From NCBI GenBank assembly GCA_009773355.1, contig WRPG01000035.1, forward strand, positions 1 through 52,740: DNA of 52,740 bases, read 5' to 3'. This document shows positions 9,759 to 29,787 of this stretch, one piece after another. The position numbers and the translations under genes are program-made. Each line of letters starts with the position of its first letter. Within the stretch, counting starts at the first letter, position 1. The notes beneath the pieces are model-generated. The model saw only the letters and a list, made by a program, of their open reading frames with translations. It was not told where the DNA came from and did not search any database. The DNA comes from Limisphaerales bacterium (GTDB lineage: Bacteria > Verrucomicrobiota > Verrucomicrobiia > Limisphaerales > SXTU01).

Positions 9759-9769
9759 GCACTGATGAA

Positions 9770-10885: not shown

Positions 10886-10960
10886 ACTCAACCCCTTGGC
10901 CAGATTTGGGCACGTTGCCGAAAACCAAGCATGAGAGACAACCGGCCAGTGACCGTCGGG

Positions 10961-10982: not shown

Positions 10983-11019
10983 CAAGGGATTTGAAGGTTT
11001 TTCCGTGCCACTGATTTCG

Positions 11020-11889: not shown

Positions 11890-11906
11890 AAACCACCGCA
11901 CCCACC

Positions 11907-13397
11907 ATGCACCACAACGCCCTGAATGACCCGTTCGACGCCGCGCAGCCCCTCGTGGACGCGCCGCATTCCCACTCCCACCAACCCGCGACCGCCGGCC
12001 CGCTGGCTGAAGTCCAGCGCGACTTCGAGGCGCGGCAGGCGCCCGCTTTCCGAGGGATGGAGCATTTCCACGAAGCCGGTCACGCCTGCACGGGGCGCGA
12101 CTGCAACCACGCCTCACACCAAGCCGACCGCCCGGCGGCCTCCGCAAACAACCTCCTTTCGCGCGTCGTCGAGAATGCCGTCATGCGCGCCATCTTCCCG
12201 GATGACATGGAACGGCGTGCCTTCCTCGGCGTCGTGGGCCGGGGCACGGCGGCGGCGGTCATCGGCTCGATGTTTGATTTTGGCACGGCGCAGTCCATGG
12301 CCGCCGAGCCGGTGAAGAACATCGAGAAGAAGGACTTGAGCGTCGGCTTCATCCCCATCACCTGCGCCACGCCGATCATCATGGCGGAGCCGATGGGTTT
12401 CTACGCGAAGCACGGCCTCAACGTGAAGGTCCGCAAGGCCGCCGGCTGGGCGGTCGTCCGCGACTGGGCCGTGAACAAGGAGGTGGACGCCGCGCACATG
12501 CTCAGTCCCATGCCGCTGGCGCTCACGCTCGGGGCCGGCTCGCCCGCCGTGCCGTTCTTCATGCCCGCCGTCGAGAACATCAACGGCCAGGCCATCACGC
12601 TCGCGCTGAAGCACAAGAACGTGAAGGGGCCGAAGGACATGAAGGGCTTCCGCTTCTGCGTGCCGTTCACCTACTCGATGCACAATTATCTCCTCCGCTA
12701 CTACCTCGCGGAAGGCGGCCTGCATCCCGACAAGGACGTGCAAATCCGCATCGTCCCGCCGCCCGAGATGGTCGCCAACCTCAAGGCCGACAACGTGGAC
12801 GGTTACCTCGCACCCGACCCGTTCAACCAGCGTGCGGTGTATGAGAACGTCGGCTTCCTGTTCAAGCTCACCAAGGAGCTGTGGGAGGGCCACCCCTGCT
12901 GCGCGTTCGCCATCTCGAAGGAGTTCACGGAGAAGAATCCGAACACCTTCAAGGCGCTGTTCCGTTCCATCGTGGACGCAACGCACTTCGCCGCCGACCC
13001 GAAGAACCGGAAGGACATCGCCAAGGCCATTTCCCCGACCAACTACCTGAATCAGCCGCAGATCGTGCTCGAACAGGTGCTCACCGGCCGTTACGCGGAC
13101 GGCCTCGGCGGCATCCAGAACGTGCCCGACCGCATCGGCTTCGACCCGTTCCCATGGCACTCGATGGCGATGTGGATTCTCAGCCAGATGAAACGCTGGA
13201 AGCACGTCGAGGGCGAACTGGACTACGCAAAGATTGCGCAGCAGGTCTATCTCGCCGCGGAGTGCGACAAGGTGATGGCCGAGCTGGGCTACAAGGCGCG
13301 CGGCGCGACCAGCAAGAAGCACATCATCATGGGCCGCGAGTTCGACCCGGCGAAGGTGGCCGAATACGCGAAGAGCTTCCCGATCAGCAACCTGTAA
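11907..13397 (+). CDS. cynA: NrtA/CynA-family substrate-binding protein with long His-rich N-terminus
   Basis: 496-residue NrtA-family protein. The binding domain (about 141-490) begins KKDLSVGFIPITCATPIIMAEP and keeps FTYSMHNYLLRYYLAEGGLHPD and VDGYLAPDPFNQ. A Tat-like motif ERRAFLGVVGRG is at 102-113, so about 100 residues precede it, far longer than a normal signal n-region; this part has ten His and two Cys (HSHSH, HFHEAGHACTGRDCNHASH), suggesting metal binding. Permease, ATPase and cyanase genes follow, as in cynABDS, so cyanate is the favoured ligand; nitrate is possible. Adjacency to NasT also allows a NasS-like sensor role. Starts at ATG 12056 or 12182 would shorten the N-terminus, but the whole stretch has coding-like composition. 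Confidence 0.78.
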   Translation: MHHNALNDPFDAAQPLVDAPHSHSHQPATAGPLAEVQRDFEARQAPAFRGMEHFHEAGHACTGRDCNHASHQADRPAASANNLLSRVVENAVMRAIFPDDMERRAFLGVVGRGTAAAVIGSMFDFGTAQSMAAEPVKNIEKKDLSVGFIPITCATPIIMAEPMGFYAKHGLNVKVRKAAGWAVVRDWAVNKEVDAAHMLSPMPLALTLGAGSPAVPFFMPAVENINGQAITLALKHKNVKGPKDMKGFRFCVPFTYSMHNYLLRYYLAEGGLHPDKDVQIRIVPPPEMVANLKADNVDGYLAPDPFNQRAVYENVGFLFKLTKELWEGHPCCAFAISKEFTEKNPNTFKALFRSIVDATHFAADPKNRKDIAKAISPTNYLNQPQIVLEQVLTGRYADGLGGIQNVPDRIGFDPFPWHSMAMWILSQMKRWKHVEGELDYAKIAQQVYLAAECDKVMAELGYKARGATSKKHIIMGREFDPAKVAEYAKSFPISNL

Positions 13398-13409
13398 TCC
13401 GCCGCGCGC

Positions 13410-14306
13410 ATGGCTCTCCGTCCCTCGTGGAAGGACCGCTTCGGTCCCTACCTCCTGTCGCTGTTCATCCTCGGGCTGTTCCTGCTCGTGTGGGAAGGAG
13501 CCACGCGGCCGCCACGCTTCGACGCCAAGGGCAAGACCGAGGACCAGCTCACGACGATGGAGTTCAACGGCGACATCGTGAAGGACGCCGCCGGCCATTA
13601 TCTCTGGAACCCCGACAAGGTGAAGGGCATCCCCGGCCCGATGAAGGTGTTCGAGAAGGCGCGCACCGAACTGGGCGAGGCCTTCGTGAAGAAGGGCACC
13701 AACGACCACGGCATCGGCTTGCTCGTTGGCTACACCATCAAGCGGTTCATGGCCGGCTTCCTCGCGGGGTCGGTCGTGGCGATTCTACTCGGCGTCCTCA
13801 TCGGCCTCTCGAAGCCGCTGTTCCTCGCACTGAACCCGTTCATCCAGGTGCTCAAGCCCATCTCGCCGCTCGCGTGGATGCCGCTGCTGCTCTACTCGGT
13901 GAAAGACCCGTTCTGGACGGCCATCCTCGTCGTGTTCATGGCGTCGCTCTGGCCCACGGTGGCGAACACTGCGTTCGGCGTGAACTCGATTCGCAAGGAC
14001 TACCTGCACGTCGCCGCGCTGCTGGAGATGAGCTACCTGCGCCGGCTGTTCACGGTCGTCCTGCCCGCCGCCGCGCCGGCCATCATCGCCGGTTTGCGCA
14101 TTTCGTTCGGCAGCGCGCTGGTGGCGGTGGTGCCGGCGGAGATGCTGCTGGGCGAACTCGGCGCGGGCTACCTCACCTGGATCGAGTGGAACAACCTCGA
14201 CATCAGCGGCGTCATCTTCGCGATCCTTGTCGTCGGCTTCGTCGGCTACGCGCTGGACTTCGCTTTCGGCAAGCTCGCCGCGCTCTTCACCTACACGGAA
14301 GTCTGA
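13410..14306 (+). CDS. cynB: Cyanate/nitrate-type ABC transporter permease
   Basis: 298-residue NrtB/CynB-type permease, paralogous to the permease at 7517. The first helix (about residues 11-28) is followed by an unusually long extracytoplasmic segment of about 80 residues before the remaining helices; the helix start YTIKRFMAGFLAGSVVAILLGV is typical. The EAA-type loop is HVAALLEMSYLRRLFTVVLP with AAAPAIIAGLRIS. It starts 12 bp after the binding-protein gene. Confidence 0.83.
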   Translation: MALRPSWKDRFGPYLLSLFILGLFLLVWEGATRPPRFDAKGKTEDQLTTMEFNGDIVKDAAGHYLWNPDKVKGIPGPMKVFEKARTELGEAFVKKGTNDHGIGLLVGYTIKRFMAGFLAGSVVAILLGVLIGLSKPLFLALNPFIQVLKPISPLAWMPLLLYSVKDPFWTAILVVFMASLWPTVANTAFGVNSIRKDYLHVAALLEMSYLRRLFTVVLPAAAPAIIAGLRISFGSALVAVVPAEMLLGELGAGYLTWIEWNNLDISGVIFAILVVGFVGYALDFAFGKLAALFTYTEV

Positions 14307-14315
14307 TTTCCGCCC

Positions 14316-15182
14316 ATGTCATTCCTCAAAGTTGACCACGTCTCGAAGCTGTATCCGGTCCTCGACGACAAGGCGAAAAGGGGTGAGAGCTTCGTCGTCT
14401 TCCGCGATGTCACGTTCGAGATCAGGCAGGGTGAGTTCCTCACGATGATCGGCCACTCGGGCTGCGGCAAAAGCACCTTGCTGAACATCATCGCCGGGTT
14501 CGACCAGTCCAGCACCGGCGGCGTCATCCTCGAAGGCCGCGAGATCACCAAGCCCGGTCTCGACCGGATGGTTGTCTTCCAGAGCTTCGCGCTGATGCCG
14601 TGGCTCACCGCGTTCGACAACGTCCGCGTCGCCGTGCGGCAGGCGCATCCCGACTGGCCGCCGGAGCAAATCCGCGACTGGACGCAGAAATACATCGACA
14701 TGATGAACCTCCACGGCGCGGAGCAGAAGCGCCCGGCGTTCCTCTCCGGCGGCATGAGACAGCGCGTCGGCCTCGCGCGCGCGTTCGCCGTCGAGCCGAA
14801 GGTGCTGCTGCTGGACGAACCGTTCGCGCAGATTGACGCGCTCACGCGCGGTGGCATCCAGGAGGAGCTGGTCCGCATGTGGAACGCCACGCGCAACACC
14901 GTCTTCATGGTCACGCACGACGTGGACGAGGCCATCCTGCTCTCCGACCGCATCGCGCTGATGACCAACGGCCCCGAGGCCGAACTGGCCGAGATCATCG
15001 AGGTGACCGTTCCGCGCCCGCGCACCCGCGCGGAGCTGATTGACTCGCCGGACTACGTGCGCATCCGCAACCACATCCTGCACTTCCTCGTGAAGGGCGC
15101 GAAGAAGAGCAAGCACACCGGCAAGGACGCGCCCGCCGCACCCGCCATTGAGTCAAAGCCCGAACTGCAACCCACCACCTGA
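14316..15182 (+). CDS. cynD: Cyanate/nitrate-type ABC transporter ATPase
   Basis: 288-residue ABC ATPase with complete motifs: Walker [10 protein letters not shown], signature LSGGMRQRVGLARAF, Walker B VLLLDEPFAQID, H-loop MVTHDVDEA. It is the only ATPase in this operon, so a homodimer is expected, unlike the NrtC/NrtD pair upstream. The C-terminal 25 residues are Lys/Ala/Pro-rich. Start 9 bp after the permease stop. Confidence 0.85.
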   Translation: MSFLKVDHVSKLYPVLDDKAKRGESFVVFRDVTFEIRQGEFLTMIGHSGCGKSTLLNIIAGFDQSSTGGVILEGREITKPGLDRMVVFQSFALMPWLTAFDNVRVAVRQAHPDWPPEQIRDWTQKYIDMMNLHGAEQKRPAFLSGGMRQRVGLARAFAVEPKVLLLDEPFAQIDALTRGGIQEELVRMWNATRNTVFMVTHDVDEAILLSDRIALMTNGPEAELAEIIEVTVPRPRTRAELIDSPDYVRIRNHILHFLVKGAKKSKHTGKDAPAAPAIESKPELQPTT

Positions 15183-15211
15183 ACCGCAAATCCTCAAACG
15201 CACATCAGCAC

Positions 15212-15655
15212 ATGACCAAAGCACAAATGACCGAAGCCATCCTCGCCGCGAAGCAGGCGAAGAAGACCACCTGGACCGCCATCGCCAAGGCCGCCGGACT
15301 GTCCGAGGTTTACACCACCTCGGCCTGCCTCGGTGAAAACGCGCTGGACACCGCCGCCGCGAAGAAAGTCGCGAAGTTTCTCCGCCTCAAGCCCGCCGTC
15401 GCCGCCGCGCTGACCGAGTTCGCGAACAAAGGCGAGGCCGCGCCGACCGTGCCCAAGGAGCCGCTCCAGTATCGCTTCCAGGAAATCATCTACGTCTATG
15501 GCCGCACGATTAAGGAGGTCATCGAGGAGAAGTTCGGCGCGGGCATCATGAGCGCAATTGACTTCACCATGGACATCGAGAAGGTGCCGGATCCCAAGGG
15601 CGACCGCGTGAAGGTCACGATGAACGGCAAGTTCCTGCCCTATAAAAAGTGGTGA
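15212..15655 (+). CDS. cynS: Cyanate hydratase (cyanase)
   Basis: 147-residue cyanase, which converts cyanate plus bicarbonate to ammonia and CO2 in the cytoplasm. The N-terminal helical domain (residues 1-75) is followed by the catalytic domain: YRFQE gives R88 and E91, and GIMSAIDF gives S114, matching the catalytic Arg, Glu and Ser of the E. coli enzyme (R96, E99, S122). The C-terminal GKFLPYKKW is also as in the family. Full length. It follows the ABC ATPase by 29 bp and fixes the probable substrate of the transporter. Confidence 0.95.
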   Translation: MTKAQMTEAILAAKQAKKTTWTAIAKAAGLSEVYTTSACLGENALDTAAAKKVAKFLRLKPAVAAALTEFANKGEAAPTVPKEPLQYRFQEIIYVYGRTIKEVIEEKFGAGIMSAIDFTMDIEKVPDPKGDRVKVTMNGKFLPYKKW

Positions 15656-16758: not shown

Positions 16759-18090
16759 ATGCACATGAAACCAAACCACCTGATGCCCATCACCTCCGCG
16801 CTGGTGCTCGCCGCCGCGAGCGCCGTGTATGCGCAGGAAAAACCCTACACCGCGCCCGTCGCGCCCGCCGCGCCGGCGGCCCAGCCGACCGCGATTGAGA
16901 AGTTCCTCAACGTGGACGGCAAGCTGCCGGAGGCGCTCGCCAAGGGGAAATTCAACCTCAACGCGCGCCTGCGCTACGAGTTCGCCGACGGGCAGACCAC
17001 CACGCCCGCGCACGCCCCCACGCTGCGCACGCGCTTCGGCTTCACCAGCGCGCCGCTCAACGGCTTCCAGGGCATGGTCGAGGCGGAGAACATCACCGCC
17101 CTCGGCGACCGCGCCAACTACGGCCTTCCCGGCATCGGTCCCGCCGGCAAGACGGTCGTCGCCGACCCGCCGACCACGGAGATCAACCAGGCCTGGGCGA
17201 GCTACGCGAAATACGACACCACGCTGAAGGCGGGCCGCCAGCGCATCGTGCTCGACAACCACCGCTTCGTCGGTGACGTCGGTTGGCGGCAGAACATGCA
17301 GACCTACGATGCCGCGTCCATCGAGAGCAAATACTTCAAGGACTTCAACCTCTACTACGGTTTCGCGTGGGACGTGAACCGCGTCTTCGGCGACGTGGCC
17401 GGCCTGCCCGCCGCGAACCGCGACTTCGACTCGGAGTCGCACTTCCTCAACTTCAGCTACAGCGGCTGGAAATACGGCAAGGTCACGGCCTACGCGTATC
17501 TGCTGGAGTTCGACAACTCCGCCGCGAACTCCTCGGCCACCTACGGCCTGAGCTTCGCGGGTGCCTACACCTTCGACAAGGAGACGAACCTCAAGGCGAA
17601 CTACCGCGCCGAATACGCGTTCCAGACGGACTACAAGAACTCGGCCCTCGCGAGCTTCGACTGCCACTACTACAACCTGGAATCGAGCCTCGACTACAAG
17701 AAGTTCAACGTGGGCGCGGGCTACGAGGTGCTCGGCAGCAACCAGAACGGCACGCGCGGCTTCGGCACGCCGCTGGCCACCCTGCATGCCTTCAACGGCT
17801 GGGCGGACATCTTCCTCGCCACGCCGACGACGGGTCTGCGCGACGTGTATGCCTTCGCGGGCGTGAAACTCCCTTGGGAGATGCCGCTCAAGGTCATCTA
17901 CCACAAGTTCGACGCCGACCGCGGCGGCGCTGACTTCGGCTACGAATACGATGCGGTCCTCTCGCGCGCGTTCGGGAAGAACTGGGTGGCAATGCTCAAA
18001 TACGCCTACTACGACGGCAAGGCACCCGCTGGCAACGCCGGCCAGGTGGACACCCAGAAACTCTGGGCCCAGGTCGAGTTCAACTTCTGA
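16759..18090 (+). CDS. Outer-membrane beta-barrel porin (alginate export/OprD-like)
   Basis: 443-residue outer-membrane protein. A Sec signal peptide (about residues 1-26, ending AASAVYAQE) is followed by an Ala/Pro-rich linker and a barrel of alternating aromatic strands (LNARLRYEFADG, NFSYSGWKYGKVTAYAYLLEF, MLKYAYYDG), ending in Phe (VEFNF), the usual C-terminal signal for outer-membrane assembly. Relatives are annotated as alginate-export or carbohydrate porins. Alone between two terminators/promoters in the nitrogen cluster, it probably admits anions such as nitrate, nitrite or cyanate; specificity cannot be read. Start ATG 16759 or 16765. Confidence 0.8.
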   Translation: MHMKPNHLMPITSALVLAAASAVYAQEKPYTAPVAPAAPAAQPTAIEKFLNVDGKLPEALAKGKFNLNARLRYEFADGQTTTPAHAPTLRTRFGFTSAPLNGFQGMVEAENITALGDRANYGLPGIGPAGKTVVADPPTTEINQAWASYAKYDTTLKAGRQRIVLDNHRFVGDVGWRQNMQTYDAASIESKYFKDFNLYYGFAWDVNRVFGDVAGLPAANRDFDSESHFLNFSYSGWKYGKVTAYAYLLEFDNSAANSSATYGLSFAGAYTFDKETNLKANYRAEYAFQTDYKNSALASFDCHYYNLESSLDYKKFNVGAGYEVLGSNQNGTRGFGTPLATLHAFNGWADIFLATPTTGLRDVYAFAGVKLPWEMPLKVIYHKFDADRGGADFGYEYDAVLSRAFGKNWVAMLKYAYYDGKAPAGNAGQVDTQKLWAQVEFNF

Positions 18091-18117
18091 TTGTTAGTTC
18101 CCTGCGTGTTGTTACTA

Positions 18118-18148
18118 CGCCCGGCCGCAAGGCCGGGCGTTTTCTTTT
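18118..18148 (+). terminator. Strong Rho-independent terminator after the porin gene
   Basis: CGCCCGGCC / GGCCGGGCG, a perfect 9-bp stem with a GCAA tetraloop, followed by TTTTCTTTT, 28 bp after the porin stop. Confidence 0.92.
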
Positions 18149-18458: not shown

Positions 18459-20498
18459 ATGACCGTCGCCAACCTCATCCGCCATTGTCAGGAGGCCCTG
18501 CTCACCGCGTCCGCCGACGCGCCGCCGGCGAGCGCGCCGCGCGCCGCAGCGTTGAAGGCGCGCGGCACGGAGTCGCTTGTCATCATCGGCAATGGCATGG
18601 CGGGCTACAAGCTGTGCGAGCGCCTCGTCGCCTCGCGCGTGCATGAGCGGCTGGACATCACGGTCTTCGGCGAGGAGCCGCGCCCGGCCTACGACCGCGT
18701 CCACCTGACCAAGTTTCTTTCCGGGCGCGCGCCGGAGCAACTGGAACTGGCTCCGCGCGAGTGGTATGAGCGCCACGACCTCGCGCTCTTCACCGGCGAC
18801 CCGGTTGTGGCGGTGGACCGCGACCAACGCCATGTCCGCTCCGCCAGCGGGCAGACGGTGTCGTATGACCGCCTCGTGTTCGCGACCGGCTCGCGGGCGT
18901 TCGTGCCGCCCATCGAAGGTAGCACCCTGCCGGGCGTGTTCGTCTATCGCACCATTGAAGATCTTGCCTCCATCAAGAGTTACGCGCCCTTCTGCCGCCG
19001 CGCGGCGGTGCTGGGCGGTGGACTGCTTGGCCTTGAAGTCGCGCACGCGCTCAAGCAGCTCGGGCTGGAGACGTGGGCAGTCGAGCGCGGCTCGTCGCTC
19101 ATGGCGCGGCAATTGGATCGTGACGCCAGCGCGCTGCTCCGCGCGCATGTCGAGAAGCTGGGCGTGCGCGTCTGCGTCGGCTGCGAGACCGAGCGCATCG
19201 AACCCATCGGCCCCGACCGGCTGCTGCAATTCAAGACCGGCGAGTGCCTGCGCGTGCAACTCGTCGTCATCGCGGCGGGCATCCGGCCGCGCGACGAACT
19301 CGCGGTGGCCTGCGGCTTGAAGCTCGGCCCGCGCGGCGGCATCGCCGTCAGCGATTCACTGCAATCTTCGGACCCCGCCGTCTTTGCGCTCGGTGAGTGC
19401 GCCAGCCACAACGGCGAAATCTACGGCCTCGCCGCGCCCGCCTATCAGATGGCGGACACGCTCGCGGGCGTGCTCGCGGGGAAGCGCCGCCGTTTCGCCC
19501 GCGCCGCGCAGTCCACCTGGCTCAAGCTGCCGGGCATCACCGTCGCCACGCTCGGTGATTACCAGGCGGACGCGGAGCACCTCGTCGCGCGACCGACGGG
19601 CGCGTATCGCCGGCTTGTGTTCGAGCAGAACCGCCTCATCGGCGCGGTCGCCGTCGGTGACTGGCCGGAGCAGCCGCGCGTGCAGGAACTCATCGAGCGC
19701 CGTGCCCGCGTCTGGCGCTGGCAGCGGCACCGCTTCGCCACGACCGGCAAGCTCTGGCGCGGCGACGCCGCGCCGCACGTCAGCCAGTGGCCCGCGAACG
19801 CGATTGTCTGCAACTGCATGGGCGTGCGCTGCGGCGTGCTCGCGACCGCCTGCGCGGAGGGCTGCGGCACCATCGAGCAGCTCGCGGCGCGCACGGGGGC
19901 CTCGACCGTCTGCGGTTCGTGTCGCCCGCTGCTGGCGGAAATGGTGGGCGCGCCCGCAGTGAGCCGCCGGCAGCCGGGCGCGCGCGCGTTGCTCGTCGCG
20001 TCGGGCCTCGCGCTCGTGCTCGCCCTGGTCATCGGCGTGGCGAAACCCATTCCGTTCGCCGACACGGTGCAGTTCACCCGGGCGATTGAGGCGTTGTGGT
20101 TGAATCCGCTGCTCAAGCAAATCACCGGCTTCACGCTCGTCGGGCTGGCGCTCGTGAGCCTGCTCCTATCGCTGCGCAAGCGCATCGCGCGTTTCTCCTT
20201 CGGTGAGGTCGGCTCGTGGCGCGCGTTCCACGCCGCGCTGGGCGTGCTCACGCTCGTGGCGGTCATCGCACACACCGGCTTCCGGCTCGGGCACAACTTG
20301 AATTTCGTCCTGATGGCGAACTTTCTCGCGCTCGCCTTGGTCGGCGCGCTGGCTGGCGCGGTCACCGCGCTCGAAGCACGGCTGGCCGGTCCGGCGGCCC
20401 GGCGGTTGCGCGCGCTCTGGACGGGCGCGCACCTCGCGCTGCTCTGGCCGCTGCCGGTGCTCATCGTGTTCCACGTGCTCGCTTCGTTTTGGTTTTGA
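18459..20498 (+). CDS. NirB/NasB-like FAD-NAD(P)H + [2Fe-2S] protein fused to a cytochrome b-like membrane domain
   Basis: 679 residues in three parts. Residues 35-440 are a pyridine-nucleotide-disulfide reductase of the type in NirB and in the NADH-linked subunit of assimilatory nitrate reductases (FAD motif VIIGNGMAGYK at 41-51; second Rossmann AVLGGGLLGLEVAHAL). A BFD-like [2Fe-2S] domain follows, with C451, C453, C485 and C488. The siroheme domain of NirB is absent; instead residues 508-679 hold five predicted helices. Helix 3 has H591 and H605 and helix 5 H658 and H672, each pair 14 residues apart, the spacing of the two-heme cytochrome b bundle. Predicted: cytoplasmic NAD(P)H oxidation with electrons passed across the membrane to the multiheme cytochrome encoded next. 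Heme binding and direction are inference. Confidence 0.82.
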   Translation: MTVANLIRHCQEALLTASADAPPASAPRAAALKARGTESLVIIGNGMAGYKLCERLVASRVHERLDITVFGEEPRPAYDRVHLTKFLSGRAPEQLELAPREWYERHDLALFTGDPVVAVDRDQRHVRSASGQTVSYDRLVFATGSRAFVPPIEGSTLPGVFVYRTIEDLASIKSYAPFCRRAAVLGGGLLGLEVAHALKQLGLETWAVERGSSLMARQLDRDASALLRAHVEKLGVRVCVGCETERIEPIGPDRLLQFKTGECLRVQLVVIAAGIRPRDELAVACGLKLGPRGGIAVSDSLQSSDPAVFALGECASHNGEIYGLAAPAYQMADTLAGVLAGKRRRFARAAQSTWLKLPGITVATLGDYQADAEHLVARPTGAYRRLVFEQNRLIGAVAVGDWPEQPRVQELIERRARVWRWQRHRFATTGKLWRGDAAPHVSQWPANAIVCNCMGVRCGVLATACAEGCGTIEQLAARTGASTVCGSCRPLLAEMVGAPAVSRRQPGARALLVASGLALVLALVIGVAKPIPFADTVQFTRAIEALWLNPLLKQITGFTLVGLALVSLLLSLRKRIARFSFGEVGSWRAFHAALGVLTLVAVIAHTGFRLGHNLNFVLMANFLALALVGALAGAVTALEARLAGPAARRLRALWTGAHLALLWPLPVLIVFHVLASFWF

Positions 20499-21868
20499 AT
20501 GCACGCCAAAAGACAATCGGGGTCTGGCTGGGCTGGGTTGCCTTCCTCCTCGCCATGACCGCATACCTCACCTATCGCTGGCGCGGCCCAGACCGCACGG
20601 CCTTCCTGCCGGGGCCGACCTCGCACGGTCATTATCAAATCGAGCTGGCCTGCAACGCCTGCCACACGCCGTGGATGGGCGTGAAGGAAAAGGCCTGCCT
20701 CGACTGCCACAGCGCAGAATTGAAGTTGGCGAACGACTCGCATCCCAAGAGCAAGTTCACCGACCCGCGCAACGCCGACCGGCTCAAGGTGCTCGCGGCG
20801 GACAACTGCCTCACCTGCCACAAGGAGCATGTGCCCGAGCGCACGCGCGCGATGGGCGTCATGCTGCCGGACGACTACTGCTACCGCTGTCATCAGGAAA
20901 CGGTGAAGGAGCGCAGCAGCCACAAGAATTACGCGTTCAACTCCTGCGCCACCGCCGGCTGCCACAACTACCACGACAACACGGCGCTCTATGAGGACTT
21001 CCTCGTCAAGCACCTCGACGAGCCGAAAACGAAATCCGCGCCACGCGTCGCTTCACGCGCGCTGCTCGCCTTCCTGAACGAGTCCGAACGCTGGCCGAGG
21101 AAATCTGCGCTCACGGCGGCGAAGCACGACGCGCCCGCGTCCGCGCGCGCGGACAAGGAGACATTGCACGCCTGGGAAACCACCAGCCACGCGCGCGCCG
21201 GGGTGAATTGCTCGGACTGCCATCTGGTGCCGGACGCGCAGTCGAAGATGAAGAGTTGGTCGGACAAGCTCGACCACACCGCTTGCGCTGCCTGCCACAA
21301 GGACGAGGTCGGCGGCTTCCTCGCTGGCAAGCACGGGATGCGGCTCGCGCAGGGATTGCCGCCTATGCAGCCAGTGCTCGCCCGCCAGCCGATGAAGCGC
21401 GAGGCCGCGCACCGTGAGCTGGGTTGCACTTCCTGCCACGGCTCGCACGAGTTCGATTCCCGCCGCGCCGCCGTCGAGTCGTGCCTGGCCTGCCACAACG
21501 ATTCACACAGCCTGGCTTACAAAAACTCGCCGCATTTCGCGCTGTGGGAGGCGGAGGTGAAGGGCGGCGCGCCCGCCGGCTCCGGCGTGAGCTGCGCCAC
21601 CTGCCACCTGCCGCGCCAGAAGTCCGCGACCGACAGCGTGCCGCGCGTGCTCGTGGACCACAACCAAAACGCCAACCTCCGCCCGAACGAGAAGATGGTC
21701 CGCTCCGTGTGCCTCGACTGCCACGGGCTGGGCTTCACGCTCGACGCCCTCGCCGACCCGGCGCTGGTGCACACGAATTTCATCGGTCGCCCCGCCCGCC
21801 ATGTTGAAAGCCTCGACCTAGCGGCGCGGCGGCTGTTGGAAACCCAAAGCAAGCAAACGAAACCCTGA
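20495..21868 (+). CDS. Membrane-anchored undecaheme cytochrome c
   Basis: 457 residues starting, most likely, at TTG 20495, which overlaps the preceding stop (TTGA); the first in-frame ATG (residue 21) would cut into the only membrane helix (about 8-27). After this anchor come ten CXXCH motifs (Cys at 53, 68, 105, 129, 239, 264, 311, 330, 367, 406) and one CX4CH (151-157), so eleven c-hemes, all on the periplasmic side. A heme-free segment at about 160-235 splits five N-terminal from six C-terminal motifs. It resembles the cytochrome c3/NapC-NirT superfamily in spacing only; NrfA's CXXCK is absent, so a transfer rather than a nitrite-reducing role is favoured. Confidence 0.85.
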   Translation: MNARQKTIGVWLGWVAFLLAMTAYLTYRWRGPDRTAFLPGPTSHGHYQIELACNACHTPWMGVKEKACLDCHSAELKLANDSHPKSKFTDPRNADRLKVLAADNCLTCHKEHVPERTRAMGVMLPDDYCYRCHQETVKERSSHKNYAFNSCATAGCHNYHDNTALYEDFLVKHLDEPKTKSAPRVASRALLAFLNESERWPRKSALTAAKHDAPASARADKETLHAWETTSHARAGVNCSDCHLVPDAQSKMKSWSDKLDHTACAACHKDEVGGFLAGKHGMRLAQGLPPMQPVLARQPMKREAAHRELGCTSCHGSHEFDSRRAAVESCLACHNDSHSLAYKNSPHFALWEAEVKGGAPAGSGVSCATCHLPRQKSATDSVPRVLVDHNQNANLRPNEKMVRSVCLDCHGLGFTLDALADPALVHTNFIGRPARHVESLDLAARRLLETQSKQTKP

Positions 21869-21879
21869 AATACACACAC

Positions 21880-22488
21880 ATGACAACACCCCACAAGAAA
21901 CTGGTCCTCGGCACCGCGTTCCTCGCCTCCGTCGTCCTCGTCGCCGGGCTGACCGGCTGCAACAAACCCGCCGCGCCCGTGGCTGCTCCGCCGCCCGCCG
22001 GCTTCACGCCCAAGCAGATGGCCGACGGCCTCTTCGCCGTCATGTCCTCGGACCGCGCGGTCTATACCAAGAACGTCGTCGCGCGCCTGCAAAACGACGA
22101 GAAGGTCATCAAGGCCAGCGAGCACTGGAAGGATGAGAAGGCGTTGCCGCTGCCTGCGCAGATGTTCCGCATGGGTGCCGAGGCGGTCGCCGAGAAGAAC
22201 CCCGGCTTCACCTACGGGCTGCTTTCGCTCTGGCCCATCAACAAGCAGAACACGCCCAAGACCGACGCGGAGAAGACCGGCCTCAAGTTCGTCTCCGACA
22301 GCGGTGGCAAGACGAATTACTACGCCGAGGAAACGCTGGGCGGGAAAAAGTATTTCACCGCCGTCTATGCCGACGTGGCCGTCTCGAAGGCCTGCGTCTC
22401 CTGCCATAACGGCCACAAGGATTCGCCTCGAACCGATTTCAAACTGGAGGATGTCATGGGCGGCGTGGTCATCCGCCTGCCGCTCTGA
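21880..22488 (+). CDS. Tll0287-like (DUF3365) mono-heme lipoprotein
   Basis: 202 residues. A lipoprotein signal peptide ends in the lipobox LTGC (C27), followed by a Pro/Ala linker and a domain of the DUF3365/Tll0287 type, known as a sensor-like or c-type heme domain. One CVSCH motif at 172-176 lies before the conserved HNGHKDSPRTDFKLEDVMGG end. Placed 11 bp after the multiheme cytochrome, it is likely a periplasmic, membrane-tethered partner or redox/NO sensor for it. Function is otherwise unknown. Confidence 0.82.
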   Translation: MTTPHKKLVLGTAFLASVVLVAGLTGCNKPAAPVAAPPPAGFTPKQMADGLFAVMSSDRAVYTKNVVARLQNDEKVIKASEHWKDEKALPLPAQMFRMGAEAVAEKNPGFTYGLLSLWPINKQNTPKTDAEKTGLKFVSDSGGKTNYYAEETLGGKKYFTAVYADVAVSKACVSCHNGHKDSPRTDFKLEDVMGGVVIRLPL

Positions 22489-22533
22489 TTCCACGGATCT
22501 TTTTGACACCAACGCACTGCCTCCCTCATTCAC

Positions 22534-22959
22534 ATGACACCACGACAAGTTGAACTCGTTCAAACCACCTGGGAAAAAGTCGTTCCCATCTCCGACCAGG
22601 CCGCCGCGCTCTTCTACGGCCGGCTCTTCGAGCTGGACCCGGAGTTGAAGCCCATGTTCAAGAGCGACATCCGCGAGCAGGGCAAGAAGCTCATGACCAT
22701 GATCACCGTCGCCGTGCGCGGCCTTGGTGATCTCGGCAAGCTCGTCTCCGCCGTCGAGGACTTGGGCCGCCGCCACGTCGGCTACGGCGTGCGCAAGAAG
22801 GACTATGAGACCGTGGCCGCCGCGCTCCTCTGGACGCTGGAGCAGGGCCTCGGTCCCGACTTCACGCCCGAGGTGAAGGCGGCGTGGGTCGAGACCTACA
22901 CCGTCCTCGCCACCACGATGCAAAAGGCGGCGGCGAAGCAGCTCGGAACCGCCGCCTGA
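22534..22959 (+). CDS. Single-domain globin (flavohemoglobin-like)
   Basis: 141-residue globin of the bacterial hemoglobin/flavohemoglobin N-domain type. WEKVVPISDQAAALFYGRLFELDPELKPMF matches helices A-C/D; the proximal His is H81 in RRHVGYGV; WTLEQGLGPDFTPEV is the G-helix region. There is no reductase domain. Bacterial single-domain globins detoxify NO or bind O2; here NO or nitroxyl made during nitrite turnover is a reasonable target, and the FAD fusion protein of the same operon could reduce it. This is inference. Confidence 0.88.
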   Translation: MTPRQVELVQTTWEKVVPISDQAAALFYGRLFELDPELKPMFKSDIREQGKKLMTMITVAVRGLGDLGKLVSAVEDLGRRHVGYGVRKKDYETVAAALLWTLEQGLGPDFTPEVKAAWVETYTVLATTMQKAAAKQLGTAA

Positions 22960-23208
22960 TGCGGCCTGTATCCCACCATGACTTGCTTATGACTGGCTGA
23001 ATTACCAAGTGGCTTTGCCTAGCAGGCAGCGCCCGCGCTGGGAGCACGCCATTGTGCTGTGCTTTCCACCCTGCGCAATTTGCGACAACTCGCACGGGTT
23101 GGCGGCATTGGGTGTTGTCACTTATGACTGCCATAAATCCCATCCGCACGGAAACGTTCATGGTTAATCGGCATCAGCTCCATGCCGCCGTGCTGGGCAT
23201 GTTGAATC
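22960..23208. other. Intergenic stretch between globin and narK operons
   Basis: About 250 bases with no supported gene. It contains a weak 5-bp hairpin (AGCAC / GTGCT) and no convincing terminator. Confidence 0.4.
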
Positions 23209-23224
23209 TGGCTCATGCTCTGCC
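23209..23224 (+). promoter_or_regulatory. Candidate sigma-54 promoter of the narK operon
   Basis: TGGCTCATGCTCTGCC: TGGC at -24 and TGC at -12 with correct 10-base spacing, CTC for CAC. It lies 74 bp before the narK start, with a predicted transcription start near 23236. Confidence 0.45.
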
Positions 23225-23297
23225 GCTAAACTATTCACCCATCGTCCCCCGGCTCCCGCTCTTCGCTGGCAAGCGGGCTGCAAGAGGCGCGGCGACG

Positions 23298-24509
23298 ATG
23301 AAATTGTCTGAACTCAAAACTGCCGGCCACTGGCCCACGCTGGTCACCTCGTTCCTCTACTTCGACTACAGCTTCATGGTGTGGACGCTGCTTGGCGTGC
23401 TGGCGAACCAGATCGCCGCGCCGGAATCGCTGAACCTCACGCCGCAGCAACGGTTCTTCATGGTGTCCGTGCCCATCCTTTCCGGCGGGTTCATCCGGCT
23501 CCTGCTTGGCCTGCTCGTGGATCGCATCGGCGCGAAGACGACCGGCATCCTCGCGCAGGTCGTCGTCATCGCGGGCCTGTCGGCCGCGTGGGTGTTTGGA
23601 TTGAAGAACTACGAGGCCACGCTGCTCATGGGCGTGGTGCTGGGCGTGGCGGGCGCGAGCTTCGCCGTCTCGCTGCCGCTGGCGGGCCGCTGGTATCCGC
23701 CGCACATGCAGGGCCTGGTGATGGGCCTGGCCGGCGCCGGCAACATCGGCGTGGTGATTGACTCGCTGCTCGCGCCCCGGCTCGCGGCGGCCTACGGCTG
23801 GGAGGCGGTGTTTGGCTTCGCCATGATTCCCGCCGTCCTCGTGCTGGCGGTTTACTGCTACGTGGCCAAGGAACCGCCGTTGAAAGTCCCCGCGAAGAAA
23901 ATCGGCGACTACTTTCGCCTCTTCGCCGACAAGGACGTCCACTGGTTTTGCTTCTTCTATACCGTCACCTTCGGCGGCTTCGTCGGCTTGGCCTACTCGC
24001 TGGGAATGTATTTCAAGGACCGCTTCAGCCTCACGCCCTCGCAGGCTGGCGACCTCGTCGCGCTCTGCACGGCCATCGGCGCGCTGGGGCGTCCGCTCGG
24101 CGGCGGCATCTCCGACCGCATCGGCGGCATCCGGTCGCTGCACATTTACTACACGACGGCGTGCGTCGCGCTCATCGCGGGCGGGCTGATTGACAGCCTC
24201 TGGCTCAACGTCGCCGCCTTCTTCATCGCGTGCGGCGCGTTCGGCATGGGCAACGGCTCCGTCTTCCAGCTCCTGCCGCAGCGCTTTGGCAAGGAACTCG
24301 GCCTGATGACCGGCCTCGTCGGCTGCGGCGGCGGCCTCGGCGGCTTCCTGCTCGCGAACATGATGGGCCAGAGCCGGCAGCACACGGGCAGTTACCTCAT
24401 CGGCCTGCTCGTCTTCGCGGGCCTGTGCATTTTGGCGCTCGTCGGCCTGAGCCTCGTGAAGAAGCGCTGGCGCACAACGTGGGGTGCTTCCGCAGCGGCC
24501 CGCATCTGA
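23298..24509 (+). CDS. narK: NarK/NasA-family nitrate/nitrite MFS transporter
   Basis: 403-residue major-facilitator protein with about 12 predicted helices. The N-terminal LVTSFLYFDYSFMVWTLLGVL and the two Gly-rich nitrate signatures (LGVAGASFAVSLPLAGRWYP and FGMGNGSVFQLLPQRF, then GLVGCGGGLGGFLLANMMG) identify the NNP/NarK family, importing nitrate and/or exchanging nitrite. The start is ATG 23298, since the longer upstream frame crosses the promoter. It heads an operon whose following genes mostly overlap or sit within a few bases, to 34988. It is the third uptake route here beside ABC and NrtS. Confidence 0.92.
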   Translation: MKLSELKTAGHWPTLVTSFLYFDYSFMVWTLLGVLANQIAAPESLNLTPQQRFFMVSVPILSGGFIRLLLGLLVDRIGAKTTGILAQVVVIAGLSAAWVFGLKNYEATLLMGVVLGVAGASFAVSLPLAGRWYPPHMQGLVMGLAGAGNIGVVIDSLLAPRLAAAYGWEAVFGFAMIPAVLVLAVYCYVAKEPPLKVPAKKIGDYFRLFADKDVHWFCFFYTVTFGGFVGLAYSLGMYFKDRFSLTPSQAGDLVALCTAIGALGRPLGGGISDRIGGIRSLHIYYTTACVALIAGGLIDSLWLNVAAFFIACGAFGMGNGSVFQLLPQRFGKELGLMTGLVGCGGGLGGFLLANMMGQSRQHTGSYLIGLLVFAGLCILALVGLSLVKKRWRTTWGASAAARI

Positions 24510-24515: not shown

Positions 24516-26282
24516 ATGACCGCGACTCTCCCAATTCCCAGCATCGCGATGGAATCGAAAGCCGCTCCCCCGACGGCCACCGTCACCATTCGCGTTGATT
24601 CGCGGGAGGCGCGGGCGGAACCTGCCGTCGTGAACCCCCCGGCCCAACTCCGCATCCACGCCACCAGCTTCACCCGCCCGCGCACCGACGACAAACCCGG
24701 CGACGACGCCTTCGTTGCCCGCGCGCTCGACGACGGCACGTTCGTCGCCGTGGTCGCCGATGGTCTCGGCTCCGCCCGCCAGGGTCGCGACGCGGCGGAG
24801 AAAGTCGTCGCCCACTACACCGCGAACTTCCGCAACCGCCCGGCGGCATGGAGCACCGCCAAGACGCTGGAGGAAATCACCCGCCACCTGAACCGCCAGC
24901 TCCATCAGGAAGGCCTCGCCCGGCACGAGTCGCCCGAACTCGCCTCCACCGTCGTCGCCGCTGTGCTCGATGGCGACCGCCTGCATGTCCTCAACGCCGG
25001 CGATTCCCGCGCCTATCGCTTACGCGCCGGCAAGCTGGAGCAGCTCACCCACGACCACCGCGAGACGGCCCAAAGCCATGTGCTCATGCAGGCCCTTGGC
25101 CTCGCTGACACCGTCGCGCCGCACGTCGCGCAGACCGACCTCGCCGTCGGCGATTTCATCCTGCTCTGTTCCGACGGCCTTTCCGACGTGCTCGACGACG
25201 CGGCGCTCACCGAACTCCTCGCCGAGCGCACCGGCGCGCGCGGCCTCGTGGCCATTGCCCGCGAGCGCGCCACGCCCGAGACGCTGGATGACATCACCGC
25301 CGTCGTTCTCGAAGTCCAGGAACTTGGTCCCGCCGCCAGCGCCGCGCCCGTCGCGTTGCCCATTCCCGCTCAGCTAAAGGTTGGCGATGTTGTGGATGGC
25401 TTCACGCTCCGTCGCAGCTTCCGCGCGAGCGACCGCATCTGGCTCGCCGCGAAGGCCGGCAAATCCTTCGTGCTGAAATTCGCCCCGCTCGAAGCGCAGA
25501 CCAACGACGCCTTCCTCACCGCCTTCATCCGCGAAACGTGGAACGCCACGACGCTCAAGGCCGACTATTTCCCCGCCGCCACCGCGCCCGAAGACGCCAC
25601 CGCGCGCTACTACGTCCTCGACTATTTCCACGCGCCCACACTGAAACAGTGGCTCGCTGACAACGGTCCGCTGCCGACTGCCGATGCCGTCACGCTCGGC
25701 AAGTTCGTGCTCGCCGCCGGCCAGTTCCTCCTGCGCCACGACTTCGTCCACGGCGACTTAAAACCCGAGAACATTCTCGTGCTCGGCGAACCCGGCGCGC
25801 TCGCGTTCAAGCTCATTGACCTCGGCAATGTTGCCGAAGTGTTCAGCGTTAACTCGCGCGCCGGCACGCCCAGTTACCTCGCGCCGGAGCGTTTCCACAA
25901 CGCCGCCGTCAGCGAGCCGACGGAAATCTTCGCCCTCGGCGCGACGCTCTACGAGGCGCTCACGGGCAAGCTGCCGCACGGCGAAATCGAGCCGTTCCAG
26001 ACGCCGCAGCTCCGCGCCGCGCGCCCGCCCAGCACTCACAACCCGCATGTCCCGCACTGGCTCGATGCCATCGTCCTCCGCGCCCTCGCGCTGCGGCCCG
26101 ACGATCGTTTTGCCGCCTACAGCGAGATGCGCTACCAGCTTGAGCATCCTGAGCAGGTGAAACCCTTCCGCTCCGCCGGTTCGCCGCTGCTCGAACGCGA
26201 CCCGTTGCTGCTGCTCAAGCTGCTGCTCGCCGCCAGCCTCGCCGTTAACCTGTTCCTGACCTGGAAACTTTTCCATCCCTGA
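24516..26282 (+). CDS. Bifunctional PP2C phosphatase-Ser/Thr kinase with C-terminal membrane helix
   Basis: 588 residues. A PP2C-type phosphatase domain at about 45-270 has KPGDDAFV, VVADGLGS (metal-binding Asp), LNAGDSRAYRL and LLCSDGLSDVL. A protein kinase domain at about 290-555 has VLKF (ATP lysine), HGDLKPENIL (HGD instead of HRD), IDLGN in place of DFG, and GTPSYLAPE. The glycine-rich loop is degenerate. One C-terminal helix (about 566-584) anchors it, both catalytic domains facing the cytoplasm. Such fusions lie beside nitrate-assimilation genes in proteobacteria too (for example between nirB and nasA in Pseudomonas), so it probably regulates uptake or reductase activity; targets are unknown. 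Confidence 0.87.
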   Translation: MTATLPIPSIAMESKAAPPTATVTIRVDSREARAEPAVVNPPAQLRIHATSFTRPRTDDKPGDDAFVARALDDGTFVAVVADGLGSARQGRDAAEKVVAHYTANFRNRPAAWSTAKTLEEITRHLNRQLHQEGLARHESPELASTVVAAVLDGDRLHVLNAGDSRAYRLRAGKLEQLTHDHRETAQSHVLMQALGLADTVAPHVAQTDLAVGDFILLCSDGLSDVLDDAALTELLAERTGARGLVAIARERATPETLDDITAVVLEVQELGPAASAAPVALPIPAQLKVGDVVDGFTLRRSFRASDRIWLAAKAGKSFVLKFAPLEAQTNDAFLTAFIRETWNATTLKADYFPAATAPEDATARYYVLDYFHAPTLKQWLADNGPLPTADAVTLGKFVLAAGQFLLRHDFVHGDLKPENILVLGEPGALAFKLIDLGNVAEVFSVNSRAGTPSYLAPERFHNAAVSEPTEIFALGATLYEALTGKLPHGEIEPFQTPQLRAARPPSTHNPHVPHWLDAIVLRALALRPDDRFAAYSEMRYQLEHPEQVKPFRSAGSPLLERDPLLLLKLLLAASLAVNLFLTWKLFHP

Positions 26283-26285: not shown

Positions 26286-27383
26286 GTGAACGAACGCAAC
26301 CATCTCGGCCTGATTGGCGGCGCTGCGCTCGCGCTGGCGGTGGCCGGGGGCATCTGGCTCGGCTCGCACGGCCTGCGGCACTTCGATCCCGCCGTGATTG
26401 GCTACGCGCTGGGGACGCTGCTCGCCGCGTTTGCCGTGGGCTACCGCTTCGTGACGTGGGCGCAGCGCCCGCCCTCGCGGATGTATTTCCGTCGCGGCCT
26501 GCAACTGCTCCTGAGCCGCAAGCAATCAACTGGCGTCGCGCCCGCCTCAGCCACCACTCCACCACTCCATCACTCCACCACTCCGCCGCCCTACGGTGCC
26601 GGCACGCTCGGCCATGCGCTGGCCACGAAGTTCGTCACGCAGGACTTCATCCGTCGCCGCAGCCCGCTGCGCTGGGTCATGCATGTGTGCCTTTCCGGCG
26701 GCTGCACGCTGGCGTTTGCCATCACGTTCCCGTTGGTGTTCGGCTGGGTCCACTTCGAGTCGCTGCCGGGCAACGCGGAAATCTACACGGTGAAGGCGCT
26801 CGGCCTTGCGGTGGACCAGTTCAGCGTCCACAGCGCGAAGGCGTTTGTGATGTTCAACCTGCTGAACTTCTCCGCCGTCATCGTGCTCGTCGGGCTGGTG
26901 CTCGCGGCATATCGGCGCGTCACCGACGCGGGCGAACTGGCAACGCAGAAATTCTTTGAGGACATCCTGCCGCTGCTGCTCATCTTCGCCGTGACCGTCA
27001 CCGGCCTTGCGCTGACGGTGAGCTACAAGTTCATGGCCGGGCGCGGGCACGGGCTGTGGGCGTTGGTTCACATGGTGAGTGTCGTCGCGCTCCTGCTCTA
27101 CATCCCATTCGGCAAGCTCTTCCACATCTTCCAACGCACCTGCTCGCTTTCGGTGAGCCTCTACAAAAAGGCCGGCCAGCACGGTCCGCGCGCGCATTGC
27201 CGGGCCTGCGGCGAGGACTACGCCAGCCAGATGCACGTGGACGATTTGAAGGTCGTGCTCGACCAGCTCGGCTTTGATTACCGCTTCGCCACCGCTCGCG
27301 GCCGCGTTCACTACCAGGACATCTGCCCCGCCTGCCGCCGCCGGCTGCTGGCGTTGAACCAGGGAAGGAGCATCGGCCGATGA
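26286..27383 (+). CDS. NarI/HdrE-like membrane redox subunit with C-terminal Cys motifs
   Basis: 365 residues from a GTG start 3 bp after the kinase gene. About six helices are predicted: two N-terminal (8-26, 36-55) and four later (130-154, 186-208, 225-246, 258-281). H262 and H280 are 18 residues apart in the last helix, the spacing of a heme-ligand pair in NarI; H133 starts another helix. C-terminal C305/C308 and C347/C350 form two CXXC pairs, perhaps zinc or Fe-S. A low-complexity insertion at about 84-103 (TTPPLHHSTTPPP) comes from repeat-like DNA. It likely feeds quinol electrons to the nitrate reductase encoded next; heme content is inferred. Confidence 0.65.
   Translation: MNERNHLGLIGGAALALAVAGGIWLGSHGLRHFDPAVIGYALGTLLAAFAVGYRFVTWAQRPPSRMYFRRGLQLLLSRKQSTGVAPASATTPPLHHSTTPPPYGAGTLGHALATKFVTQDFIRRRSPLRWVMHVCLSGGCTLAFAITFPLVFGWVHFESLPGNAEIYTVKALGLAVDQFSVHSAKAFVMFNLLNFSAVIVLVGLVLAAYRRVTDAGELATQKFFEDILPLLLIFAVTVTGLALTVSYKFMAGRGHGLWALVHMVSVVALLLYIPFGKLFHIFQRTCSLSVSLYKKAGQHGPRAHCRACGEDYASQMHVDDLKVVLDQLGFDYRFATARGRVHYQDICPACRRRLLALNQGRSIGR
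26551..26585 (+). repeat. CCACTCC word repeat inside the NarI-like gene
   Basis: Tandem ACCACTCC/ATCACTCC words, in frame, encode the Thr/Pro/His-rich insertion. The same words make up the inverted repeat found 3' of this gene (27395-27483), suggesting shared origin. Confidence 0.7.
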
Positions 27384-27394
27384 AGACGAACGAA

Positions 27395-27483
27395 GTGATG
27401 GAGTGTTGGAGTATTGGAGTGATGGGCTTCAGCACGCGCACGTTCCTGTCCAACACTCCAGCACTCCAATACTCCACCACTCC
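27395..27483. repeat. Word-repeat hairpin (TGGAGT / ACTCCA)
   Basis: The left arm 27395-27423 and right arm 27449-27483 are imperfect inverted repeats made of GTTGGAGTATTGGAGTG-like words. It starts 12 bp after the NarI-like stop and ends 15 bp before the nitrate reductase start, inside the operon. Confidence 0.85.
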
Positions 27484-27497
27484 GTTGCCCCGCTGAC

Positions 27498-29693
27498 ATG
27501 GCCACACTGACCATCACCGACGACCGCTACACCGAGCTTTACGGCCCGACGCCGAACTACACGCCAGCTGGCGGCTGGAACAACGGCGAGCCCGACAAGC
27601 TCGTGAAGACGCATTGCTGCTTCTGCGGCGTGCAGTGCGGCATCCAGCTCAAGGTCAAAGACAACAAGGTCATCGGCTTCGAGCCGTGGGAGGAGTTTCC
27701 GGTCAACCAGGGCAAGCTCTGCCCCAAGGGCGTGAAGCGTTACATGCAGAACGACCACCCCGACCGCCTGCTCACGCCGCTCATCCGCAGCGCGACCGGC
27801 TTCGACGTGGCGAGCTGGGAGAAGTCGCTCACCAAGACCGTCGCGGCCATCCAGTCCATCCAGGCAAAACATGGCAAGGACTCCTTCGCCTTCCTCGGCG
27901 GCGCTTCAATGACGAACGAGAAGGCCTACCTCAACGGCAAGTTCGCCCGCATTGCGCTCCAGACGGCGAACATTGACTACAACGGCCGCCTTTGCATGGT
28001 CAGCGCGGGCGCGGCCAACCGGATGGCGTTCGGCGTGGACCGCGCGGCCAATCCGTGGAGCGACATCCCGCTCGCGAAGGTCATCATCCTCACCGGCACG
28101 AACCTCGCCGAGTGCTTCCCCATCCTCACCGACTACATCTGGCGCGCGCGCGACAATGGCGCGAAAATCATCGTCATTGACCCGCGCATCACGCCCATCG
28201 CGCGGACCGCCGACCTCTTCCTGCCGGTGCGACCGGGCCGCGACAGCGCGCTCGCGAATGGCATCCTGCATGTGATGATCGAGCGCGGCTGGATTGATGA
28301 GAAGTTCATCGCCGAGCACACGCACGACTTCGACAAGGTGCGCGAGTTGGTGAAGAAATACACGCCCGAGGTGACGGAGAAAATCACCGGCGTCCCGGCC
28401 AAGAGCATCCTCGCCGCAGCGGAAGCGTGGGGCACGGCGGAAACCTCGATGCTCCTGCACGCGCGCGGCATCGAGCACCACACGAAGGGCGTCGAGAACG
28501 TCCTCACCTACATCAATCTCGTGCTCGCCAGCGGCCGCATCGGCAAGCCCGGCTGCGGCTACGGCACGATCACCGGTCAGGGCAACGGCCAGGGCGGACG
28601 TGAGCACGGCCAGCGTTGCAATCAGCTTCCAGGCGGGCGCGACATCAACAAGCCGGAGCACCGCCAGTTCATCGCGGACTTCTGGAAAATCCCCGAGCCG
28701 GAGCTGCCGAAGCAGGGCCTCACCGCGTGCGAAATCATCGACGCCATCGAACGCGGTGAAATCAAAGGCCTGCTCTCCATCAGCTTCAACCCGCTCGTCT
28801 CGATTCCCGACTCGAACCGCACGCGCGCCGCGCTGGAGAAGCTCGAGTTCTTCGCGTGCATTGACCCGTTCCTGAGTGAGACTGCGCGCCACGCCGACGT
28901 GGTGTTCGCCGGCTCGTTGCAGGAGGAGGACGAAGGCACGGTCACGACTGGCGAGGGCCGCTGCGTGCGCCTGCGCAACTCCGTCTCGCCGCCCGGCAAC
29001 GCGCGCGTGGACTGGCAAATCATCTGCGACCTCGCCAGGCGGCTGGGCAAGGAGCAGTGGTTCAGCTACGGGAACGCGGGTGAGATTTTCACCGAGCTGA
29101 CGGCAGCCTCGAAGGGCGGGCCGATTGATTACAGCGGCATGACCTACGAGCGCATCGAGCAGAACATGGGCCTGTTCTGGCCGTGCCCCGCGCCGGAGCA
29201 TCCCGGCACGCCGCGCCTGTTCGAGGGCGGGAAGTTCCATCACCCCGACGGCAAGGCGAAGTTCCACGCCTACGACTACCGCCCGCCCGCCGAGGACGTG
29301 GATGCCGAGTTCCCCATCTTCTTCACGAGTGGACGCGTCGTGTCGCAATACCTCAGCGGCACGCAGACGCGGCGCATCGGGAGCCTCGTGGACCAATATC
29401 CCGAGCCGCTGTGTGAGATGCACCCGCTGCTCGCCGCGAAATTCGGCATCAACGACCGCGACATTGTCAAAGTCACGACGCGGCGCGGCGAGATGACCTT
29501 GCCGGCGCAGGTCGTGAAGAGCATCCGGCCCGACACGGTGTTCATCCCGTATCACTGGGCGGGCAAGAAGGCGGCGAACCAGCTCACAAACCGCGCGCTC
29601 GATCCCATCTCAAAGATTCCCGAGTTCAAAGTCTGCGCCTGCAAGGTTGAGAAGGTCGCCGATGCGCCGCTCAAGAACCTCACCACCCAATGA
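27498..29693 (+). CDS. nasA: Assimilatory-type molybdopterin nitrate reductase, catalytic subunit
   Basis: 731 residues of the Mo-bis-MGD family (Nas/NarB/NapA branch). The N-terminal [4Fe-4S] site is C40, C43, C47 and C75 (CCFCGVQCG then LCPKG); the presumed Mo-ligand Cys is C166 in [39 protein letters not shown] and the C-terminal MPT-binding domain ([19 protein letters not shown]) are typical. There is no Tat signal, so it acts in the cytoplasm, as for assimilatory enzymes. It lacks the C-terminal [2Fe-2S] domain seen in some NasA proteins; electrons must come from other subunits such as the ferredoxin-like and NarI-like proteins beside it. Confidence 0.92.
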
Positions 29694-29703
29694 AAGCCGA
29701 GAT

Positions 29704-29779: not shown

Positions 29780-29787
29780 AAACCCGC

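Follow-up and report, generated by a model that had tools for sequence, protein, structure and literature searches.

A putative transmembrane conduit from NADH to an 11-heme cytochrome, encoded within a nitrate-assimilation cluster of a Limisphaerales bacterium and recurring in many bacterial phyla

Four adjoining genes of a Limisphaerales bacterium (Verrucomicrobiota) probably encode an electron wire that would lead from reduced nicotinamide adenine dinucleotide (NADH) through flavin adenine dinucleotide (FAD), an iron-sulfur cluster, and two hemes b to 11 hemes c. The genes occupy positions 18459-22959 of a 52,740-nucleotide stretch of contig WRPG01000035.1 (assembly GCA_009773355.1, forward strand), hereafter called the window, and form an operon that lies inside a nitrate-assimilation cluster. 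Of the purposes weighed, nitric oxide (NO) handling during nitrate assimilation is the best single reading, and we tentatively favour an inner-membrane NADH:multiheme-cytochrome oxidoreductase of the nitrate-assimilation machinery that most likely would protect against or balance NO.

All four genes lie on the plus strand and are present as a sequence-only reading of this DNA had listed them. A FAD-BFD-cytochrome b fusion of 679 amino acids (18459-20498; NADH/FAD part at residues ~40-416, BFD [2Fe-2S] domain at 450-497, and five membrane helices at 508-678) is followed by a membrane-anchored 11-heme c-type cytochrome (20495-21868), a Tll0287-like (heme Cache) lipoprotein with one CxxCH motif (21880-22488; PF11845, 9.3e-19), and a single-domain globin (22534-22959; globin profile, 3.9e-18). 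The gene overlap claimed for the first two was also borne out, as the likely start codon of the cytochrome, read from the sequence as the TTG at 20495-20497, overlaps the TGA stop codon of the fusion at 20496-20498, for a total overlap of 4 nucleotides. A scan of GTDB genomes with an alignment of the cytochrome gave 396 relatives; 116 loci were inspected, and 109 were left as a nonredundant set once near-identical ones had been removed.

The flavin and iron-sulfur head of the fusion matched Pyr_redox_2 (4.6e-52), Rubredoxin_C, a rubredoxin-reductase-type C-domain (5.7e-10), and Fer2_BFD (4.6e-07) in Pfam. The FAD/NAD domain and the one BFD of the fusion have counterparts in the large subunits of NirB and NasB, but where these continue into a siroheme/4Fe-4S half, the fusion has a five-helix cytochrome b-like domain instead, and the NCBIfam NirB model (4.3e-135) covers it over only the first 471 of the model's 794 positions. 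No NIR_SIR (siroheme/4Fe-4S) domain was found in the fusion, and within the window this domain occurs only in nirA at 31372-33219; the earlier claim that siroheme domains are absent holds for the fusion, and a true siroheme nitrite reductase is encoded elsewhere in the cluster. The predicted BFD ligands C451, C453, C485, and C488 are 95-99% conserved among homologues. An acidic residue behind the glycine-rich motif of such proteins favours NADH over NADPH, and since E209 stands in this place, a preference of the fusion for NADH is suggested. A fold search with the fusion returned only flavoproteins among the matches listed.

AlphaFold2 placed the five membrane helices of the fusion at residues 508-527, 550-572, 584-606, 614-641, and 644-678 (mean predicted local distance difference test score [pLDDT], 78, with the membrane helices moderately confident), and in this model H591 and H605 fall in helix 3 and H658 and H672 in helix 5, with 13 residues between the members of each pair. 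Among the 74 fusions that adjoin a cytochrome, both H-x13-H pairs are kept in 73. A search for homologues that retain the operon and lack these histidines accordingly found essentially none, the one exception being locus L090, in which H672 is replaced by Arg. Compared with the label "cytochrome b-type" given by the sequence-only reading, "b561/DUF4405-like" is more exact, and the profile matches behind it are weak: of 14 members compared, 9 matched DUF4405 (best E-value, 2e-4) and 5 matched cytochrome b561, which is consistent with the class of two-heme membrane cytochromes b. Ferric_reduct matched a single one of the 14 at 0.16, and a profile of the membrane domain gave only chance-level matches to solved structures. 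Topology was approached through loop charge in 83 homologues, in which the mean number of Lys and Arg residues was 4.6 in loop 2-3 and 3.9 in loop 4-5, and at most 1.5 in loops 1-2 and 3-4 and at the C terminus. According to the positive-inside rule, Lys/Arg-rich loops face the cytoplasm; thus, loops 2-3 and 4-5 are predicted to lie on the cytoplasmic side, the same side as the FAD-BFD part. H591 and H658 would then lie close to the cytoplasmic face, with H605 and H672 close to the periplasmic one; each face of the membrane would thereby receive one bis-His heme b.

The adjoining cytochrome has an N-terminal membrane anchor, ten CxxCH motifs, and one CxxxxCH motif, and exactly 11 motifs were counted in 108 of 109 cytochromes, the exception being a gene split into two frames. 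Together with the histidine pairs and the loop charges, this count supports the proposal of a transmembrane wire from NAD(P)H to the periplasm. In such a wire, NADH would reduce the cytoplasmic FAD, as the NirB-type domain suggests, and electrons would pass to the BFD [2Fe-2S] cluster, from there to a heme b held by H591 and H658 at the cytoplasmic face, then to a second heme b held by H605 and H672 at the periplasmic face, and onward to the anchored 11-heme cytochrome. The cytochrome would hand them to a periplasmic acceptor, most likely NO and possibly nitrite, either directly or via the Tll0287-like lipoprotein together with a small cytochrome c that is present in many relatives. On the inner side, the cytoplasmic globin would remove NO, and it may itself receive electrons from the FAD-BFD domain.

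NADPH oxidases, ferric reductases, and MsrQ also send electrons from a cytoplasmic flavin through two stacked membrane hemes b, held by histidine pairs in two helices, to an acceptor on the far side. The fusion resembles them in this general layout but differs in its flavin domain of NirB/ferredoxin-reductase type, its [2Fe-2S] relay, and its 11-heme partner. In agreement with the earlier statement that no described system was known with this set of parts, searches of open-licence papers found no description of the gene set, and papers that seemed to be prior art proved not to be. The parts are of known kinds and their combination is without a description found in the open literature; the system is best regarded as a variant transmembrane NAD(P)H-to-heme conduit and not as a wholly new principle.

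The arrangement exceeds chance and is not a local oddity, since it recurs in 109 nonredundant loci. By best hit, the fusion stands beside the cytochrome in 107 of them, as does the Tll0287-like gene (107/109); one further fusion, that of Crenothrix (L100), received its label in this count from the H-NOX part. The relatives come from at least nine phyla, with records named as Verrucomicrobiota, Planctomycetota, Pseudomonadota, Acidobacteriota (Bryobacterales), and Poribacteria and, further, as Dadabacteria, Binatia, Nitrospirota, and Myxococcota. Many are metagenome bins; isolates with the module include Cerasicoccus, Pelagicoccus, Rhodopirellula, Polyangium, Neptuniibacter, and Planctomycetales bacterium 10988. 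Several variants were seen. The Polyangium fusion has a long low-complexity linker between head and stem, and in an Opitutales locus (L170:4071-7006), ResB- and CcsA-like cytochrome c maturation genes were recognized by eye between a truncated globin and the fusion. In two loci (L162 and L172), the reading frames of both fusion and cytochrome are interrupted several times, and these are apparently decaying or misassembled copies. In loci L026, L027, and L029, proteins weakly related to the membrane domain (L014, L015, and L017) are encoded near 10-heme cytochromes and, in some, Fe-S proteins, which possibly represent another system of cytochrome b and multiheme protein.

The nitrate-assimilation cluster around the operon is extensive. 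Nitrate-type ATP-binding cassette (ABC) transporters, a cyanase, and an alginate-export-type porin (16759-18090) precede the four genes, which are followed by a NarK/NNP-type nitrate/nitrite transporter (23085-24509), an adjoining PP2C phosphatase-Ser/Thr kinase fusion (24516-26282; near the module in 7 of 109 loci), a QmoC/NarI-like membrane subunit and probable NasA partner (26286-27383), the NasC/NasA-type molybdopterin subunit of an assimilatory nitrate reductase (27498-29693), a DmsB-like 4Fe-4S subunit (29788-30513), a NirA-type siroheme nitrite reductase (31372-33219), and a CysJ-like flavodoxin/FAD/NAD(P) reductase (33216-34988), with the porin and all of these on the plus strand. The overlap of nirA and the CysJ-like gene by 4 nucleotides suggests an NADPH-fed nitrite reductase pair. 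Because the nitrate reductase is accompanied by a DmsB-like Fe-S subunit and by a membrane subunit of the QmoC/NarI-like or DmsC-like kind, in the window (26286-30513) as well as at L018:310-1839 and L020:2191-3819, it looks quinol-linked, which is unusual for an assimilatory enzyme. Two separate nitrate-type ABC transporter sets share the cluster with the cyanase (5487-15655), and a deoxyhypusine synthase-like protein is encoded, in a bacterium, at 2087-3259. Rfam gave no match within the window, a promoter scan found none, and terminator-like sites occurred no more often than in shuffles; one such site, at 18117-18140, lies directly 3' of the porin. A comparison with viral contigs found no match.

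The link to nitrate assimilation extends to the relatives. Nitrate-assimilation genes were found within 10 kb of the module in 47 of 109 loci. A phylum sample of 388 genomes held 9 with the module, leaving out four weaker membrane-domain matches, and all 9 were among the 83 genomes with a NasA-like match at 1e-60, a match that may take in other molybdenum enzymes. Calculated by hand, the chance of this outcome is ~7e-7 on the assumption of independent genomes, which they are not. Adding 16 named carriers brought those checked for NasA, Hmp, and NrfA to 25. A NasA homologue was present in 16/16 of the named carriers, and NIR_SIR domains, which could also belong to sulfite reductases, were present in 15/16, the exception being a Binatia genome (L085), which had no match.

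We tentatively favour NO as the object of this system because globins, NsrR-like repressors, and an H-NOX fusion in Crenothrix all point to it. A globin or truncated globin is near the module in 77 of 109 loci, and Y28, Q49, and H81 are invariant in the 69 single-domain globins that neighbour it. By comparison with Hmp, we take these residues to be Tyr B10, Gln E7, and His F8 of the NO dioxygenase pocket, and the globin is thus predicted to have a flavohemoglobin-like, NO dioxygenase-type heme pocket and may have the corresponding activity. Its nearest solved relative, 3wfw (3.4e-30), carries the annotation of a hemoglobin-like flavoprotein joined to a Roadblock/LC7 domain. An NsrR-like (or similar Rrf2) gene was found near 7 of 109 loci; the two Rrf2 genes tested matched NCBIfam NsrR best (6e-40 and 1e-35), under the curated cutoff and with RirA close behind. 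In four isolates (two Cerasicoccus, one Puniceicoccaceae, and Pelagicoccus), such a gene heads the operon and is followed by the Tll0287-like gene, cytochrome c, globin or truncated globin, fusion, and 11-heme cytochrome. The fusion of Crenothrix polyspora starts with an N-terminal H-NOX domain (HNOB, 6.2e-34), and its cluster also holds a truncated globin and flavin/FeS reductases; Hmp-like reductases stand beside truncated globins in both Neptuniibacter and Crenothrix. Carrier genomes gave a mixed picture, with full-length Hmp-like proteins in 7 and NrfA in 9 of the 25, and neither in the window's genome.

Two known systems are instructive. In Bradyrhizobium japonicum, the narK-bjgb-flp-nasC unit has been shown to serve both nitrate assimilation and NO detoxification, in that the globin and Flp remove the NO formed (PMC4724949). 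This unit likewise holds nitrate assimilation genes, NarK, a single-domain globin, and an FAD/NAD(P)H oxidoreductase, but Flp is cytoplasmic, and the unit is without a cytochrome b, an 11-heme cytochrome, or a Tll0287-like protein (PMC4724949). NsrR-controlled NO defence includes Hmp, NnrS, and Hcp (PMC1274295), and an NsrR-like gene, a globin, and Hmp-like reductases adjoin some copies of the module; a membrane wire and a multiheme cytochrome, however, are not among the members of the regulon in the part of that source consulted (PMC1274295).

Several observations weigh against an NO-directed oxidoreductase of nitrate assimilation. In 62 of 109 loci, no nitrate genes were seen within 10 kb, although some records are short, and NsrR-like genes are absent from the window and few overall. 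In two Dadabacteria loci (L039 and L044) and one of Bryobacterales (L047), a lone cytochrome b part with the four histidines adjoins the 11-heme gene without FAD-BFD; as these loci keep both without the head, cytochrome b and 11 hemes seem to form the core, for which the FAD-BFD head seems a replaceable input. Although members of the Tll0287-like family include a signalling protein that binds NO tightly, a stand-alone Tll0287-like protein bound it only weakly (PMC12889525). The cytochrome motifs are all CxxCH or CxxxxCH, with no NrfA-type CxxCK that would mark a Lys-ligated catalytic heme, and the AlphaFold2 model of the cytochrome (pLDDT, 40) is too poor for a catalytic heme to be recognized. 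Furthermore, 12 nonmotif histidines are at least 94% conserved, so that all 11 hemes could be bis-His and purely conductive. The 11-heme protein may therefore be either an enzyme or merely a wire. Whether the module amounts to a widespread unrecognized NO (or nitrite) reductase, an NADH-driven transmembrane wire whose 11-heme cytochrome would reduce periplasmic NO in connection with assimilatory nitrate use in many phyla and without kinship to NorB, NorV, or Hmp, is doubtful, and we put it forward as a possibility.

Alternatively, the wire may act as a redox valve that sends excess NADH electrons from the cytoplasm to a periplasmic cytochrome c and a terminal oxidase and so keeps redox in balance during nitrate use, with NO not a substrate. 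The histidines sufficient for bis-His ligation of every heme fit this explanation, as do the small class I cytochrome c found with the module in 37 of 109 loci and the redox-active appearance of stand-alone Tll0287-like proteins (PMC12889525). It leaves the globins, NsrR-like regulators, and H-NOX fusion unexplained, however, and we consider it unlikely. It was also weighed whether the cytochrome receives NADH electrons by way of the fusion and reduces nitrite (or hydroxylamine) to ammonium in the periplasm, given the nitrate/nitrite gene context and the C-terminal likeness of the cytochrome to the octaheme nitrite reductase TvNiR (2.3e-8) and NrfA, which share the pattern GVxCxxCHxP...H...CxxCH with its last heme domain. 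This likeness is local, spanning only ~50 residues, and the cytochrome differs from both in its 11 hemes, its N-terminal anchor, and its lack of a CxxCK heme; with a siroheme enzyme in the same cluster and NIR_SIR domains in nearly all named carriers, such a role seems rather improbable. The cytochrome as the missing assimilatory nitrite reductase was rejected on the same two grounds, and ammonium formation is kept as a rival only.

It is similarly hard to credit that the system supplies nitrate reductase, with FAD-BFD feeding NasA in the manner of NasB or Flp while cytochrome b and the 11-heme protein would provide a connection with the quinone or cytochrome pool. The requirement for Flp in both nitrate growth and NO tolerance of Bradyrhizobium (PMC4724949) would agree with this, as would the NasA-like homologue in 25/25 carriers checked, but NasA comes with a DmsB-like Fe-S subunit and a membrane subunit of its own in the window, and with a DmsB-DmsC fusion in relatives, and most NasA-bearing genomes of the phylum sample are without the module; we regard this explanation as very unlikely. 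Finally, a conduit to extracellular acceptors like MtrCAB or PioAB, running through the neighbouring porin, is highly improbable: the cytochrome is locally similar to DmsE-family decahemes (5e-13) and a porin is near 18 of 109 loci, but the porin is of the alginate-export and not the MtrB/PioB type, none is near most loci, and no outer-surface cytochrome, as in the MtrA/DmsE porin-cytochrome conduits, was seen next to the module. Of the purposes suggested by the sequence-only reading, extracellular acceptors thus found no support, while nitrite or NO handling is backed by the nitrate context, globins, NsrR-like regulators, and H-NOX fusion.

In sum, the 396 relatives from one genome scan show that the system extends far beyond what could be known from a single locus. 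If our interpretation is true, an NADH-to-periplasm conduit that has no name and is linked to nitrate assimilation is present in hundreds of species across many phyla, and a common gap in genome annotation would gain a function. The conduit would be a new type of transmembrane electron carrier, in which 11 hemes are fed by a NirB-like flavin/FeS head through a stem of cytochrome b, and the question of how bacteria cope with the NO arising in nitrate assimilation would gain an answer that can be tested.

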